Positions 3,968 to 63,115 of a DNA stretch of 64,000 nt are shown here, one piece after another (positions within the stretch are counted from its first letter, which is position 1; every line of letters begins with the position of its first letter). The notes beneath the pieces are model-generated. The model saw nothing but the letters and a program-made list of their open reading frames with translations, was not told the origin of the DNA and ran no database searches. This DNA is from Luteibacter sp. dw_328 (GTDB taxonomy: Bacteria > Pseudomonadota > Gammaproteobacteria > Xanthomonadales > Rhodanobacteraceae). Where the stretch lies: the NCBI RefSeq assembly GCF_018449605.1, contig NZ_JAAVUW010000004.1, forward strand, positions 248,001 through 312,000. The letters are read 5' to 3'. The position numbers and the translations under genes were made by a program.

Positions 3968-4198
3968 ATGTCCGACTTCACCCTCTTCCAGCGAGACGAC
4001 TGTCACCTTTGCGACCTCGCGTTGGAGGTGCTGGCGCAGGCGCGTTTTCCGGAGTTCGTCTCGGTGTGGATCGATGAGGACGAGGCTCTGGAGGCGCGCT
4101 ATGGGGCGCGGGTGCCGGTGCTGCAACGAGGGGATGGCGTCGAGCTGGACTGGCCGTTCGACGCCGAGGCGGTGAAGGCCTTCGTAGCGCTTCGGTAG
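3968..4198 (+). CDS. Glutaredoxin-like small thioredoxin-fold protein
   Basis: 76 residues beginning with a beta strand and then CHLC (Cys12-Cys15), a CXXC active site placed as in glutaredoxins and DUF836 proteins. VPVL at about residues 52-55 fits the cis-proline strand of the thioredoxin fold. It is probably a cytoplasmic thiol-disulfide protein; substrate unknown. Its stop codon TAG is the TAG inside the GTAG head of a REP palindrome, so the repeat sits exactly at the gene end and may have supplied the stop. Divergent from sdaA. Confidence 0.8.
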   Translation: MSDFTLFQRDDCHLCDLALEVLAQARFPEFVSVWIDEDEALEARYGARVPVLQRGDGVELDWPFDAEAVKAFVALR

Positions 4199-4272
4199 GA
4201 GCCGATTCATCGGCGAATGGAGCGTACGGCGTCACCGCTCCGTTGGCTTTTCGCCGATGAATCGGCTCCTAC
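4195..4272. repeat. Inverted pair of GTAG-type REP palindromes (REPIN-like)
   Basis: Two copies of the 23-bp REP that starts GTAGGAGCCGATTCATCGG lie head to head (4195-4217 forward, 4250-4272 reverse), separated by 32 bp that contain a smaller GGAGCG/CGCTCC inverted repeat. Each REP has its own stem (GCCGA/TCGGC) behind the GTAG tetranucleotide. GTAG-headed REPs such as the SMAG elements of Stenotrophomonas are mobilised in trans by RAYT (TnpA-REP) transposases; none is encoded in this window. Confidence 0.9.
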
Positions 4273-16915: not shown

Positions 16916-17058
16916 GAGACCTTGGTGTCCACCCTCGCTGCTCAGACACGTCCTCCGCGTTCGAGAAGGAAAGGCCGCTCACGCGGCCCGTGTATCTATT
17001 TGGCCTACGGCCGCTCCACTTGTGCGGAACTCGCATCGAGGGTGGACACCAAGGTCTC
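16916..17058 (+). repeat. Long-stem hairpin unit A (family 1)
   Basis: 143 bp. The left arm (16916-16937, starting GAGACCTTGGTGTCCACC) and right arm (17037-17058) are perfectly complementary over 22 bp. The ~99-bp interior starts CTGCTCAGACACGTCCTCCG and ends GTGCGGAACTCGC; it contains a smaller hairpin GGCCGC-tcac-GCGGCC and a GGCC-tac-GGCC palindrome. The interior is shared with units B, C and D. No start codon with a ribosome binding site is present, so it acts as DNA or RNA structure. Confidence 0.85.
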
Positions 17059-17269: not shown

Positions 17270-17413
17270 AGAGCCTTCGGTGCCCACCCTCGAGGCGAGT
17301 TCCGCACAAGTGGAGCGGCCGTAGGCCAAATAAGTACACGGCCGCGCAGCGGCCTTTCCGGTACGAAACGCGGAGGACGTGTCTGAGCAGCGAGGGTGGG
17401 CACCGAAGGCTCT
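17270..17413 (-). repeat. Long-stem hairpin unit B (family 1, inverted)
   Basis: 144 bp, the same interior as unit A but on the opposite strand. Arms 17270-17292 and 17391-17413 pair perfectly over 23 bp. Compared with unit A the arm differs at four positions (for example CCTTCGGTGCCC in place of ACCTTGGTGTCC), and each change is matched in the opposite arm. Because A and B are inverted relative to each other, they could also pair with one another to form one large hairpin. Confidence 0.85.
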
Positions 17414-31775: not shown

Positions 31776-32804
31776 ATGCGTATCCGCGCGCGAGGATGGC
31801 TATTTGTCTTGTTGCTGGTCTCGGGGACGGCGTTCGGTAAGGACGTGCGCCGCTTCGAGGGCGAGACCATGGGCACGACCTGGTCGGTCAACGCCGTACT
31901 TCCGGATGGCGCGGATGACCGCGCCATCGAGCGCGGCATCCAGGCCGAAGTGGATCGTGTCGTTGCGCAGATGAGCACCTACGAAGCGGACTCGGACCTG
32001 AGCCGGTTCAATCGCGCGCCGGCCGGTACGTGGCAGACCTTGCCGCCGGAGTTCTACACCGTGTTGCGCTACGCGCTGGACCTGGCGAAGTCGTCCGGCG
32101 GTGCTTACGACCCGACGGTCGGACCGCTGGTGAACCTCTGGGGATTCGGGCCGGACAAGCGCCCGCGCGAGGCACCCGACGCCACGGCGATCGCCGCGGC
32201 GAAGGCGCGGGTGGGTTGGGCGAAGATCCGGCTCGACGATGCCGGTCACCGAGCCTTCCAGCCCGGTGGCGTGTATGTCGATCTGTCTTCCGTGGCCAAG
32301 GGGTTCAGTGTGGACCAGGTGGCGCATTACCTGGACCGCGCCGGTGTGCATGCTTATCTCGTGGAGGTGGGTGGCGAGCTGCGCGGCCGTGGACACAAGC
32401 CCGATGGCTCAAACTGGCACGTCGGCATCGAACGGCCGGGGGCGGCGGCCGGGGCGGTCGACAATCCCGACGAAGTCGAGCGCATCGTGTCGATGACGGA
32501 CCGTGCGATCGCGACCTCCGGCGACTACCGCCATTTCTTTGAAAGTGGCGGCACATTCTTCTCGCACCACATCGATCCCCGCACCGGCTATCCGGTGACC
32601 CATCGTGTCGCGTCGGTCAGTGTCATTGCCGTGGACTGCATGCTCGCCGATCCGCTCGGCACGACGCTTACGGTGCTGGGTCCGGACGAAGGCATGGTTT
32701 ATGCGAAGGAGCATGGTATCGCTGCACTGTTCATTCTCTATGGTAACGACGGCACGTTCAGCGAACGGATGTCGCCGGCCTTCGCGGCAGCACTAAAGCA
32801 GTGA
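31776..32804 (+). CDS. apbE: FAD:protein FMN transferase ApbE
   Basis: 342 residues with a signal peptide ending near GTAFG (about 21). ApbE motifs: GETMGTTWSV at the start, SGGAYDPTVGPLVNLWGFG, VDLSSVAKGFSVDQVA, and DRAIATSGDYRHFFE with HHIDPRTGYPV near the Mg and FAD site. It transfers FMN from FAD onto Thr in D-x-x-[ST]-G-A-T motifs of exported proteins; the DUF2271 protein of the same operon is the obvious substrate. Its stop codon overlaps the GTG start of the next gene. Confidence 0.95.
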   Translation: MRIRARGWLFVLLLVSGTAFGKDVRRFEGETMGTTWSVNAVLPDGADDRAIERGIQAEVDRVVAQMSTYEADSDLSRFNRAPAGTWQTLPPEFYTVLRYALDLAKSSGGAYDPTVGPLVNLWGFGPDKRPREAPDATAIAAAKARVGWAKIRLDDAGHRAFQPGGVYVDLSSVAKGFSVDQVAHYLDRAGVHAYLVEVGGELRGRGHKPDGSNWHVGIERPGAAAGAVDNPDEVERIVSMTDRAIATSGDYRHFFESGGTFFSHHIDPRTGYPVTHRVASVSVIAVDCMLADPLGTTLTVLGPDEGMVYAKEHGIAALFILYGNDGTFSERMSPAFAAALKQ

Positions 32805-34255
32805 AAGCCACGTTCGGTCAGATCGCTATCGGCGCGCTGTTGCTCGCTTCTGTCCTGGGGTTTGCCGGGATGCATGACTTTTCCGGCATCCATGCCGCGT
32901 CGCTGCCGCGCGCAGGGTGGGCGGGTGCGCTCGGGGTGGCCTGGGCGGCGATGACCGTCGTGCTGGCGCGCGGGAAGCGCGAAGAGGTTGCGATCGATGT
33001 CGCGTCGGCGGACGCGAAGCCAGCGACGATCCTCGTCGTGCACGCGTCGCAGACGGGATTTGCCAGCGAGCTGGCGGAGCGCACGGCCGAACTGCTTCGC
33101 AACGGTGGCCTGACCGTCGACCTGCGTGACATGGCAGCGCTGACGCCAGCGCTGCTTACCCAGGCCACGCGTGCACTGTTCGTCGTCAGCACGACGGGCG
33201 AGGGCGATGCACCCGACATGGCCACCGCATTTCGTCGCGAGGCAATGACATCGCCGCTGCCGCTTCGTGGACTGGCCTATGGCGTACTCGCGCTGGGCGA
33301 TCGCGATTACGAAGACTTCTGCGCGTTCGGCCACGATCTTGAACACTGGCTCCATGCGAGCGGTGCGTTGCCGCTGTTCGACCTCGTCGAAGTGGACAAC
33401 GGCGACGAGGGCGCGCTGCGACATTGGCAGCACCACGTTGCCCAGCTATCGGGCTTGTCGTCGCAACCGGACTGGTCGCGGCCGGCCTACCAGTCGTGGC
33501 GACTGCTGGAACGCAGGCTGCTCAATCCGGGCAGCGTCGGCAGCCCCTGTTTCCACCTGGCGCTGGCACCGGACGACGCCACGATGCTGAACTGGCACGC
33601 CGGCGACGTGGTCGAAATCGGTCCGCGCCTGGCGAATGGCGAATCCGTGTCGTTGCCGCATCGCGAATACTCGATCGCCTCCGTTCCTGCCGACGGCGCC
33701 CTGCATCTCGTCGTCCGGCAAATGCGCGCGGCGGACGGAACGCTCGGCCTGGGCTCGGGCTGGCTGACCGAGCACGCCGCGGTCGGCGACATGGTCGATC
33801 TGCGAGTGCGCCGCAACGAAAACTTCCACGCCCCGACTGACGGTCGACCGGCCATCTTCATAGGCAACGGTACGGGCATCGCCGGCCTGCGCGCGTTGCT
33901 CAAGGCGCGCATCGCCCAAGGCCACACGCGCAACTGGCTGCTGTTCGGTGAGCGTCATGCCGAGGCCGACCGGCTGCACGTCGACGAGCTGGAACGCTGG
34001 CACGAGGCGGGCAGCATCGAGCGCCTCGACCTGGTCTGGTCACGCCAGTCGCGTGGATCGCGCTACGTGCAGGACCGCCTTCGGGTCATGGCCGACGAAG
34101 TGCATCGCTACGTGGCCGACGGCGCAAGCATCTACGTCTGTGGCAGCCTCGCCGGCATGGCCCCGGGCGTCGACGCCGCGTTGCGCGGCATCCTCGGCGA
34201 GGACCTCGTCGAGAAGCTGGCGGCTGGCGGCAGGTACCGGCGTGACGTGTACTAA
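32801..34255 (+). CDS. Membrane-anchored flavodoxin/FAD/NADPH reductase (CysJ-like)
   Basis: 484 residues from a GTG start overlapping the apbE stop (GTGA). Two N-terminal helices (about 5-25 and 38-56), a flavodoxin domain with the FMN loops VVHASQTGFASELA and VSTTGEGDAPD, an FAD-binding barrel (REYSIAS motif) and an NADPH-binding domain with GNGTGIAGLRALL. It is a diflavin reductase as in the sulfite reductase alpha subunit, but anchored to the membrane and with no CysI partner nearby. Inferred: delivers electrons from NADPH to the PepSY protein. Last gene of the operon; it faces repeat locus 2. Confidence 0.88.
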   Translation: MKATFGQIAIGALLLASVLGFAGMHDFSGIHAASLPRAGWAGALGVAWAAMTVVLARGKREEVAIDVASADAKPATILVVHASQTGFASELAERTAELLRNGGLTVDLRDMAALTPALLTQATRALFVVSTTGEGDAPDMATAFRREAMTSPLPLRGLAYGVLALGDRDYEDFCAFGHDLEHWLHASGALPLFDLVEVDNGDEGALRHWQHHVAQLSGLSSQPDWSRPAYQSWRLLERRLLNPGSVGSPCFHLALAPDDATMLNWHAGDVVEIGPRLANGESVSLPHREYSIASVPADGALHLVVRQMRAADGTLGLGSGWLTEHAAVGDMVDLRVRRNENFHAPTDGRPAIFIGNGTGIAGLRALLKARIAQGHTRNWLLFGERHAEADRLHVDELERWHEAGSIERLDLVWSRQSRGSRYVQDRLRVMADEVHRYVADGASIYVCGSLAGMAPGVDAALRGILGEDLVEKLAAGGRYRRDVY

Positions 34256-34269
34256 CGCCGGACAGCTCT

Positions 34270-34337
34270 GTAGGAGCCGATTCATCGGCGAAAGGACGGT
34301 CGCGACGCGCCCCATGTAACCAGCGGCTTACGCCGCC
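34270..34337 (+). repeat. GTAG-REP plus shared outer module
   Basis: REP at 34270-34292, then a segment reading cggtcgcgacgcgccccatg and taaccagcggcttacgccgc, nearly the same as 62504-62570. This shows that REP and flank travelled or were copied together. It starts 14 bases after the reductase stop codon. Confidence 0.85.
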
Positions 34338-34360
34338 TCACGCCTGTGTCCGTGGCGGAA

Positions 34361-34489
34361 GCCGCGAGGGGCAAGGCCCTTGGGGCCGCGGCGCGGCTCT
34401 TCGAGACGGGCCGTAGCTCCTCTTTCGCATTCCATGTGGACTGAGCGGCCCTCAGCTTAGGCGTCCCCAAGGGCCTTGCCCCTCGCGGC
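34361..34489 (+). repeat. Long-stem hairpin unit E (family 2)
   Basis: 129 bp. Arms 34361-34385 (starting GCCGCGAGGGGCAAGG) and 34465-34489 are perfectly complementary over 25 bp. The interior has two conserved blocks shared with unit F (about CCGCGGCGCGGCTCTTCGAG onward, and GCGGCCCTCAGCTTAGGCG) around a variable centre of about 32 bp. Confidence 0.85.
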
Positions 34490-34545
34490 ACCGAACGCCG
34501 AGGTTGCGTGGGGCCGAGCAAACAACCAGTCAACGCAGCGCTTTT

Positions 34546-34699
34546 GTAGGAGCCGATTCATCGGCGAACCCTCAGCGCCAATCTTCGCGAACGAGGCATT
34601 GCATCGCATCATGCGGGCGTTCAACCGTCCGGCCAATCACCACAAGGCCTCGTTCGCACGTCTGACAACCTGAGGTTTCGCCGCTGAAGCGGCTCCTAC
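34546..34699. repeat. REP doublet enclosing an imperfect hairpin
   Basis: A REP at 34546-34568 and a reverse REP at 34677-34699 (GAAGC variant) bracket about 108 bp. Inside, GGCGAACCCTCAG pairs with CTGAGGTTTCGCC (one mismatch) and GCGAACGAGGC (34587-34597) pairs with GCCTCGTTCGC (34647-34657). Together they allow a long interrupted hairpin. The layout is that of a REPIN, with a longer spacer than usual. Confidence 0.8.
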
Positions 34700-34780
34700 A
34701 GAAAACGGCCTGGTCGCTCATTAGACCTTGAGCGACGAAGCGGCGTTGCGCATTTGCCACACGCAACCTCAACGTCCGGT

Positions 34781-34909
34781 GTCGCGGTCGGGTTGGCCCT
34801 TGGGGCCGCCTAAGCTGAGGGCCGCCCAGTTTTCGTGCAAGCGATCGCGCCACCTACGGCCCGTCTCGAAGAGCCGCGCCGCGGCCCCAAGGGCCAACCC
34901 GACCGCGAC
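34781..34909 (-). repeat. Long-stem hairpin unit F (family 2, inverted)
   Basis: 129 bp. Arms 34781-34809 (starting GTCGCGGTCGGGTTGG) and 34881-34909 pair perfectly over 29 bp. Over the 25 bp comparable with unit E the arm differs at seven positions, all compensated in the partner arm. The interior blocks match unit E on the other strand. Confidence 0.85.
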
Positions 34910-35000
34910 TCACACGACAGCACGAGCGTGAGGCGGCGAACGCCGCTCAATACATGAGCCGTAAAGCGGCTGTCCTTCAAGAGAGACGGCGCCGGATCGT

Positions 35001-35666
35001 TCAGACGACAAGCAAACGCACCTTCCCACCAACGACACCCTCGACACGCAACGCTGTCAGGTCGGTAATCCATTCGACGTTCCCGGGAATCTCTTCCGGA
35101 TGATCACCGGCGATAGCGATGACGCGTGCGCCCGCGGCGAGTCCCGCGTCGATGCCGGCCTTGGCGTCCTCGAACACCAGGGTGTCCTTCGGATCGGCGT
35201 GCATGCGCTTCGCACCGAGGAGGTAACCCTCGGGATCGGGTTTGCCGTTGGTGACGATCTCACCGGTGACCATCAACGGGGGCGGGACGATGCCGGCGGC
35301 GCCCAGGCGGGCCTTGGCCAGCACCGTGTCGGCCGACGTAACGATGGTCCACGCTTCGGGTGGCAGGGCAGCGAGGAGGGCGTGTGCACCGGGAATCTGC
35401 ACGATGCCATCGACTTCCTCGACCTCTTCGCGATACAGGCGCTGGAATACGGCATCGACATCCATGCCGGGTTTGGCGAACATCTTCACCGAATCCATCA
35501 TGCGCACACCGTGCAGGCGTGGCAGCACGGCGTGCCAGTCGATGCCGTTCTCATCGCACCAGCGTTTCCAGATTTTCTCGACGACGACGCGCGAGTCGAT
35601 CAGCGTGCCGTCCATGTCGAACAGCAATGCACGAGCCTCGATGACCGTGCCTGATTCAAGTCGCAT
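35001..35666 (-). CDS. HAD-superfamily phosphatase (subfamily IA, sugar-phosphatase-like)
   Basis: 221 residues. Motif I FDMDGTLIDS (about 16-25) with nucleophile Asp, a helical cap domain (about 30-95), motif II TSAD, motif III Lys in NGKPDPEGYLLGAKRM and motif IV VFEDAKAGIDAGLAAG. This is the pattern of YfbT/DOG1-type sugar-phosphate phosphatases; beta-phosphoglucomutase is less likely. Substrate unknown. An excellent GGAGG ribosome binding site lies four bases before the ATG. It faces repeat locus 2. Confidence 0.88.
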   Translation of the reverse strand: MRLESGTVIEARALLFDMDGTLIDSRVVVEKIWKRWCDENGIDWHAVLPRLHGVRMMDSVKMFAKPGMDVDAVFQRLYREEVEEVDGIVQIPGAHALLAALPPEAWTIVTSADTVLAKARLGAAGIVPPPLMVTGEIVTNGKPDPEGYLLGAKRMHADPKDTLVFEDAKAGIDAGLAAGARVIAIAGDHPEEIPGNVEWITDLTALRVEGVVGGKVRLLVV

Positions 35667-62594: not shown

Positions 62595-62736
62595 GAGCCT
62601 TCGGTGCCCACCCTCGCTGCTCAGACACGTCCTCCGCGTTTCGTACCGGAAAGTCCGCTGCGCGGCCCGTGTTCTTATTGGCCTGCGGCCGCTCCACTTG
62701 TGCGGAACTCGCCTCGAGGGTGGGCACCGAAGACTC
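62595..62736 (+). repeat. Long-stem hairpin unit C (family 1)
   Basis: 142 bp. Arms 62595-62616 and 62715-62736 pair over 22 bp with one C-A mismatch. The left arm equals that of unit B. The interior starts CTGCTCAGACACGTCC as in unit A and carries the B-type variant TTTCGTACCGG. Confidence 0.85.
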
Positions 62737-62974: not shown

Positions 62975-63115
62975 GAGACCTTGGTGTCCACCCTCGAGGC
63001 GAGTTCCGCACAAGTGGAGCGGCCGTAGGCCAATAAGAACAGGGGCCGCGGAGCGGCCTTTCCTTCTCGAACGCGGAGGACGTGTCTGAGCAGCGAGGGT
63101 GGGCACCAAGGTCTC
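62975..63115 (-). repeat. Long-stem hairpin unit D (family 1, inverted)
   Basis: 141 bp. Arms 62975-62996 and 63094-63115 pair over 22 bp with one T-G opposition, which would be a G-U wobble if transcribed. Left arm identical to unit A. The interior is unit A's on the other strand, with the A-type variant near TTCGAGAAGG. Confidence 0.85.

Follow-up and report, generated by a model that had tools for sequence, protein, structure and literature searches.

Two 129-nt hairpins standing in inverted orientation in the genome of Luteibacter sp. dw_328, here called E and F, are probably the two end modules, left and right, of a Luteibacter mobile element of the RAYT type (HUH, single-tyrosine), and would fold as the outward-reading single strand. 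Coordinates are those of the window, the whole 64,000-nt stretch of contig NZ_JAAVUW010000004.1 that was analyzed. The copy in the window (34267-34977) would be a gene-less derivative, with a REPIN in place of the transposase gene. The mobility of RAYT elements and the origin of REP-like repeats are still largely open questions, and here a single genus offers gene-bearing, remnant-bearing, and gene-less copies of one family for side-by-side comparison.

The arms of E (34361-34389 and 34461-34489) are perfectly paired over 25 bp from the outer end, or over 29 bp with one mismatch, while those of F (34781-34809 and 34881-34909) are perfect over 29 bp. The interior is 71 nt long in both units. 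Compared over 25 bp, the E and F arms differ at positions 2, 7, 8, 9, 12, 13, and 14 from the outer end, and all these differences are compensated in the opposite arm. Inside, the conserved blocks GGCGCGGCTCTTCGAGACGGGCCGTAG and CGGCCCTCAGCTTAGGCG flank a variable center of about 30 nt. An earlier note on this DNA had described the perfect arms, their spacing, the seven matched differences, and the two conserved blocks around a variable center, and on each of these points the sequence bears it out. Folding is also far above chance. All four strands fold better than every one of 200 dinucleotide shuffles, whether treated as RNA or as DNA, with z between -6.4 and -9.1.

What had been missed is that E and F are only part of what is repeated: the element spans about 711 bp (34267-34977), and its order on the plus strand is REP, outer module, E, inner flank, REPIN, inner flank, F, and outer module. 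The left border is a GTAG-type REP on the plus strand (34267-34293), of which 24 nt are identical to 34545-34568, and it is here that similarity among the genome copies begins. The left outer module (34294-34360) follows, with a small hairpin carrying an inward GGAC tag and then a GCGGC..GCCGC hairpin; related modules lie outward of the units in many loci, not in all. Next comes unit E (34361-34489), for which the minus strand is the outward and putative folding strand. The left inner flank (34490-34514) is conserved in the copies and is the inverted match of the right one (34756-34780), the two forming inverted repeat I1. Between them, the central REPIN (34542-34703, inverted repeat I4) is made of two inverted REPs and occupies the place that the RAYT gene has in L. 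yeojuensis (compare loci L266 and L267). In unit F (34781-34909), the plus strand is outward and presumed to fold, and the right outer module (34910-34977), recognized from the genome copies and from the comparison of outer modules, consists of a GCGGC..GCCGC hairpin, ACATG, and a small hairpin ending in GTCCTT. With REPs at 34267, 34545, and 34680 around E and F, the whole is a BIME-like mosaic. Neither E nor F has a GTAG or GTGG tag at the foot of its hairpin. One outer module is common to the E/F element and a locus of family 1, the other hairpin family of the window. The flanking ORFs are convergent: 32801-34255 (plus), which from the look of its sequence we take to be flavodoxin/reductase-like, and 35001-35666 (minus), presumably HAD-like on the same grounds. 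Rfam 15 has no match in the window at the gathering score, and its six matches to the element are sub-threshold, with E-values up to 5. A stand-alone REPIN-like pair of the same REP as at 34267 and 34545 is found at 4195-4272.

The site of the element is polymorphic among Luteibacter genomes. Syntenic regions were fetched for 16 of the 22 other genomes, and E/F is absent from all 16. One of these holds a lone REP at the site (in the congener G010), one a hairpin-less composite (L091, in G014), and one a third hairpin family (L105, in G004). In L091 the outer modules and the REPIN are kept, both hairpins are missing, and only outer arm pieces are left; this hairpin-free form is either the pre-insertion state or a deletion at a GGCA microhomology. 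L105 is syntenic to 34256-35000, and its hairpin lies between REPINs, the arm GCAGAGGCGGCGGGGGCGACCCTTGGCGC being separated from its complement by about 200 nt.

Searching this genome with the DNA of E yielded 19 units plus fragments, distributed over 13 loci with units and one with a fragment. Two full units are present in 6 of the 13 loci, and in all six they face each other. When the 19 units are aligned they fall into two classes, a left type (10) and a right type (9), with only few and small arm variants (for example in L011 and L013). The seven changes between E and F, counted as compensated in the earlier note, are thus a single old left/right divergence that was copied along with the element, and independent compensation between these two units was rejected. 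The same note would have given up its reading if both arms derived from a single inverted duplication with no independent change; this is indeed the picture for E and F taken alone, but it does not hold across the genus, where compensation is repeated. Half units are seen at L020, L164, and L165, where the 5' arm and the first core block either end abruptly or run on into a REP; this suggests recombination inside the unit.

Across the genus, the DNA search finds the E/F family (family 2) in 11 of 23 Luteibacter genomes, the matches in G014 being partial units. Among 233 genomes of the taxonomic family, a covariance model, R1, detects units in ten, each of them a Luteibacter (10 of 23), and with strict filters in none of the 210 non-Luteibacter genomes. 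As this search filtered strictly and scored at most 14 candidates per genome, its per-genome counts are lower bounds, and weak relatives may have escaped it. The further copies with conserved pairing that had been looked for therefore exist within Luteibacter, complete with repeated double changes, and the part of the proposed search that reached into other genera of the taxonomic family found nothing in those 210 genomes. Outside Luteibacter the core pattern matched 10 of 48 stretches and three viral contigs, none of which R1 confirmed at an E-value of 0.01, the best score being that of L223 (18.7 bits, E 0.33). Extraction from the fetched loci gave 92 distinct units from 9 genomes after one candidate without arms was dropped. 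The G014 and G015 loci yielded no unit at this step; both fetched G015 loci do contain a family-2-like hairpin, but miss the core pattern used for extraction. Of the 92 units, 85 have an arm of at least 24 bp, and 49 remained after near-duplicates were removed at 93%, which gave alignment A1. In L. rhizovicinus (G011, L106-L122), 16 of 18 fetched loci join one family-2 unit to a hairpin of another family, with arms AGAGCCGTCGGCCACCACCCTCGACGC and an interior of 187-193; a single composite can therefore hold units from more than one family.

The fold counted on A1 (49 units, 9 genomes) has 39 pairs, with 26 bp in P1, 5 in P2, 6 in P3, and 2 in P4. Of its 1904 cells 96.5% are paired, versus 85.6% after shuffling. 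Changes on both sides of a pair are found in 21 of the 39 pairs, versus 12.2 in shuffled alignments, and none of 500 shuffles reaches 21. The covariation score is 0.296, versus 0.088 shuffled and 0.024-0.054 when the partner is slid by 1-3 columns, where 33-51% of cells are still paired; since the structure was drawn from the same 49 sequences, the comparison with slid partners is a favored one. P1 accounts for most of the both-sided changes (18 of its 26 pairs), with up to five pair types per position. In the core, one pair is changed on both sides in each of the helices: P2 column 38/103 is GC, CG, AU, or UA across lineages, P3 goes from CG to GC, and P4 from CG to UA. Two pairs of P2 are broken, one in 14 and the other in 22 of the 49 units, the helix is poor in the window's own lineage because of a U.C mismatch, and single-sequence folding of E and F does not return P2 and P3 as drawn. 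Within G001, four stem positions vary in changing combinations among the right-hand units L146, L147, L148, and L150, and these positions are paired in every unit save for one G.U in L148. The double changes between species, together with these varying G001 units, mean that compensation was repeated: pairing in the E/F family is conserved by compensation across Luteibacter and does not go back to one duplication. The covariance analysis proposed for this family has thus been carried out, and the pairing is real across the genus.

Which strand folds can be read from the mismatches that remain. Over the inner 27 bp of the arms (92 units, 2389 pairs compared) there are 101 of them, 65 being G.U on the outward strand, 3 G.U on the inward strand, and 33 of other kinds. 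Reduced to distinct events of genome, position, and context, the counts are 36 outward G.U, 3 inward G.U, and 21 other (binomial test for 36 versus 3, p = 3.6e-8), and as some positions are common to congeners these events are not phylogenetically independent. A duplex, or copying from arm to arm, would give G.U evenly on both strands; the bias therefore means that one single strand folds, and we infer that the outward-reading strand is the one kept able to do so. A double-stranded cruciform is not the best reading of such an asymmetry. Strand-biased mutation may contribute a share of it, because among within-genome close-copy variants the ratio of outward C>T to G>A is 11:4 in the arms and 32:18 in the flanks. 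As the whole cause it is disfavored, the interior being even (16:16) and the flanks only mildly biased. R1, whose training set includes both units, scores E at 112 bits on the minus (outward) strand and 47 on the plus, and F at 111 bits on the plus (outward) strand and 57 on the minus. Folding energies favor the inward strand, both for RNA (E -94.1 versus -85.5 outward, F -98.0 versus -91.8 outward, in kcal/mol) and likewise for DNA (E -51.6 versus -50.5 outward, F -56.6 versus -52.7 outward). The basis of the single-strand claim is mismatch chemistry, not folding energy. In ends of this size, covariation reveals the fold and mismatch chemistry indicates the strand, and the count of G.U versus A.C can be applied to any palindromic repeat, asking whether selection sees one strand.

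Family 1 behaves in the same way. Its paired units occur in 13 of 23 Luteibacter genomes, and the window holds two loci, with left units on the minus strand at 16916-17058 and 62599-62732 and right units on the plus strand at 17270-17413 and 62975-63115; going by the mismatch counts, the outward strand would again be the one that folds, with the same polarity as in E and F. In 83 units from 8 genomes, 48 of them from this genome, G.U cells number 69 outward versus 3 inward, and events 31 versus 3. The mismatches are nearly all T for C (C-to-T), in one arm and at few positions. These counts come from a search that tolerates indels and requires a family-1 arm, and that found no unit in 2 of 53 sources. 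The same search without indels gave 68 units, with 58 versus 3 cells and 25 versus 3 events; indels in the search core left 10 of 53 sources without a unit, including every one of the five from G014 and three from G012. Loci L031-L060 of family 1 showed no match to RAYT. The earlier observation that two unrelated families share one layout thus extends to polarity and strand bias, which makes one mechanism for both reasonable.

A RAYT lineage is physically linked to E/F units. PF01797 (Y1 transposase) is found in 22 of 23 Luteibacter genomes. It is listed at 25 places, two of which are linked to E/F and 21 of which were scanned for hairpins, with G017 and the second place of G020 left out. The two linked genes are in L. 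yeojuensis (G022), on contigs L266 and L267. Both contigs open inside the 3' arm of E, keeping its final 14-15 nt and the inner flank (96% identical to L127 over 51-52 nt), and beyond these a 184-aa ORF runs into F, with its stop codon in the core of F. These ORFs are RAYTs by NCBIfam NF047646 (110 and 104 bits, cut-off 80), and Pfam agrees. At other L. yeojuensis loci, RAYT remnants lie between E and F, clear in L133 and L127, weaker and short in L126 and L130. Matches in tblastn to RAYT residues 165-184 only were dropped, as they are the F arm entered by the reading frame. Linkage to both ends is seen only in this one species, at contig ends and with E partial. A search of 5.8 billion clustered proteins added the metagenome RAYT P0003 (68% identical), which has the left unit only: upstream of the RAYT its N-terminal stretch is a read-through of the outer module and the E unit, matching unit L153 at 73% over 70 aa (E 8e-29 with composition correction switched off). 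In a tree of 35 hand-chosen rows, the linked RAYTs form one clade with P0003, P0002, and P0005 (support 98/92), and a wider clade (100/96) also takes in the resident RAYT of G015, which has REP flanks. A possible unit beside this G015 gene (L278, 41 bits) turned out to be a plain REPIN cross-matching R1. The 21 other RAYT loci that were scanned include none with an E/F-like hairpin and 20 with REP hairpins of GTAG or GTGG type. The only Y1 transposase of this genome is not linked to E/F. At the ends of IS200/IS605-like HUH elements, HuH acts with a catalytic Tyr and cleavage is guided by a tetranucleotide. HuH is kept in L266, L267, and P0002-P0004. In L266 and L267 the tyrosine of Y---NP is replaced (F, L) and the P is also lost, and P0005 has lost the tyrosine, while P0002-P0004 keep both tyrosine and P. 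Judged by these motifs, the lineage as a whole seems alive, even if both L. yeojuensis copies look dead.

We propose that a RAYT element with large folded ends gave rise to gene-less copies, which would have spread as roughly 0.7-kb units; the central REPIN of these copies would be a feature of the window's lineage. The outward strand of each unit would form P1, a long stem of about 26-29 bp, with a small branched core of P2, P3, and P4 at its inner end. Met as single-stranded DNA, for example on the lagging-strand template, it would be recognized by the cognate RAYT, which would discriminate the outward strand from its complement as TnpA_REP does REP from iREP. The sequence of P1 would then be free to drift as long as it stays paired, while the core stays fixed. 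In the passages cited, TnpA_REP reads a folded single-stranded REP strand-specifically, and iREP is neither bound nor processed (Corneloup et al., 2021; PMC8266576). An enzyme of the same class is thus the simplest reader for E and F, which as putative substrates are much larger than a REP.

That the folded strand acts as DNA rather than RNA is favored, and RNA is the main alternative. It is possible, if clearly less probable, that E and F are the structured 3' end of outgoing transcripts, as a terminator, an mRNA stabilizer, or a small RNA, F being the 3' end of the transposase message in RAYT-bearing copies. Structured-RNA roles have been proposed for REP, ERIC, and similar repeats, and the tolerance of G.U seen in families 1 and 2 is a classic mark of RNA; against this, single-stranded DNA likewise accepts G.T more readily than A.C. 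The RAYT frame stops inside F and so places F in its mRNA, but compensation is kept in gene-less copies, where it is not maintained by cis regulation of RAYT. A rough count of gene orientations (19 convergent, 17 co-directional, 5 divergent) leans toward the transcript ends, but is noisy and weighs little, with 21 loci uncalled and the convergent locus of the window itself scored co-directional.

It is unlikely that the RAYT gene is a passenger which jumped between two pre-existing hairpins, the units belonging to another system. Linkage to both ends in one species only, with other genomes having E/F and an unlinked RAYT, would fit such a passenger, but P0003 has its own E unit directly upstream and groups with the linked RAYTs, and remnants of the gene are found in several copies. 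We give little credence to E and F encoding a structured RNA, read outward, that serves in trans as a cofactor or end-recognition molecule for the RAYT HUH transposase; if true, this RAYT lineage would be RNA-assisted, with the drifting, always-paired stem as the lineage-specific part. Hardly probable either is that arm-to-arm copying, by gene conversion or by template switching at quasipalindromes, keeps the arms identical while folding is under no selection. This fits arms that are often perfect and E/F differences inherited as blocks, but it predicts no strand bias where events run 36 to 3 and 31 to 3, an asymmetry that weakens it as the sole cause of pairing, and alone it does not explain the compensated changes in the short core helices.

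With end modules of a RAYT element as the preferred reading, the E/F element is closest, among known kinds and by the source passages on them, to the TIRtrons or TIRYTs, in which a RAYT-like gene is flanked by long inverted repeats and not by REPs (Di Nocera et al., 2013; PMC3733652); passages of PMC6006769 also cover RAYT-like genes with such flanks. According to the former passages, TIRtron repeats may recur as a repeat family, some are self-complementary (for example at Stenotrophomonas maltophilia ORF 1152), the flanks may overlap the gene, and a GGGGWSAS motif is common to a subset of TIRs only (PMC3733652). Like these, E and F are long, inverted, genome-repeated, and self-complementary repeats around a RAYT gene, with a flank that overlaps the gene, and they are unrelated to GTAG REPs. 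The gene lies between the repeats in L266 and L267, where E is cut by the contig end, and the window copy has no RAYT gene. Unlike the TIRtrons as those passages describe them, E and F have a conserved multi-helix core, covariation, and strand bias, and each Luteibacter end is a branched hairpin of 129 nt, its stem differing between left and right, accompanied by a tagged hairpin farther out. What the passages of both sources (PMC3733652, PMC6006769) do not describe is a branched, covarying, strand-specific end structure or the genus Luteibacter. Our search found no open-licence PMC paper treating Luteibacter together with RAYT.

The REPINs or BIMEs that accompany RAYTs are described, in the passages cited (Bertels and Rainey, 2011; PMC3116915), as inverted palindrome pairs that presumably descend from the termini of an autonomous RAYT element, and E and F are likewise an inverted palindrome pair in a mosaic with REPs. 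REP units are given as 20-40 bp (PMC3733652), with GTAG or GTGG 0-2 nt 5' of a fully paired basal stem of 7-20 bp and a short loop or second stem (PMC6006769). Unlike REPs with a GTAG-type tag at the foot, E and F have a variable stem of 26-29 bp, a branched core, and no such tag. YPAL, ERIC, and Correia-type repeats are large palindromes that lie between genes and fold upon transcription; we know of no linked RAYT and no E/F-like core in them.

Two small features of the sequence may be added. In columns 33-36 of A1 the core motif is TNAG, where N is G, A, or T in the 49 units and never C, and it is at the TGA of this motif that the RAYT frame of L266 and L267 stops; both the lack of C and the position of the stop may be chance or structure. 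At the outer ends of the element (34294-34350 and 34910-34977) and of other loci, there is often a small hairpin with an inward GGTT, GGAC, or GGAT tag beside the GCGGC..GCCGC hairpin, and these tagged small hairpins are possibly the real termini and a REP of non-GTAG type.
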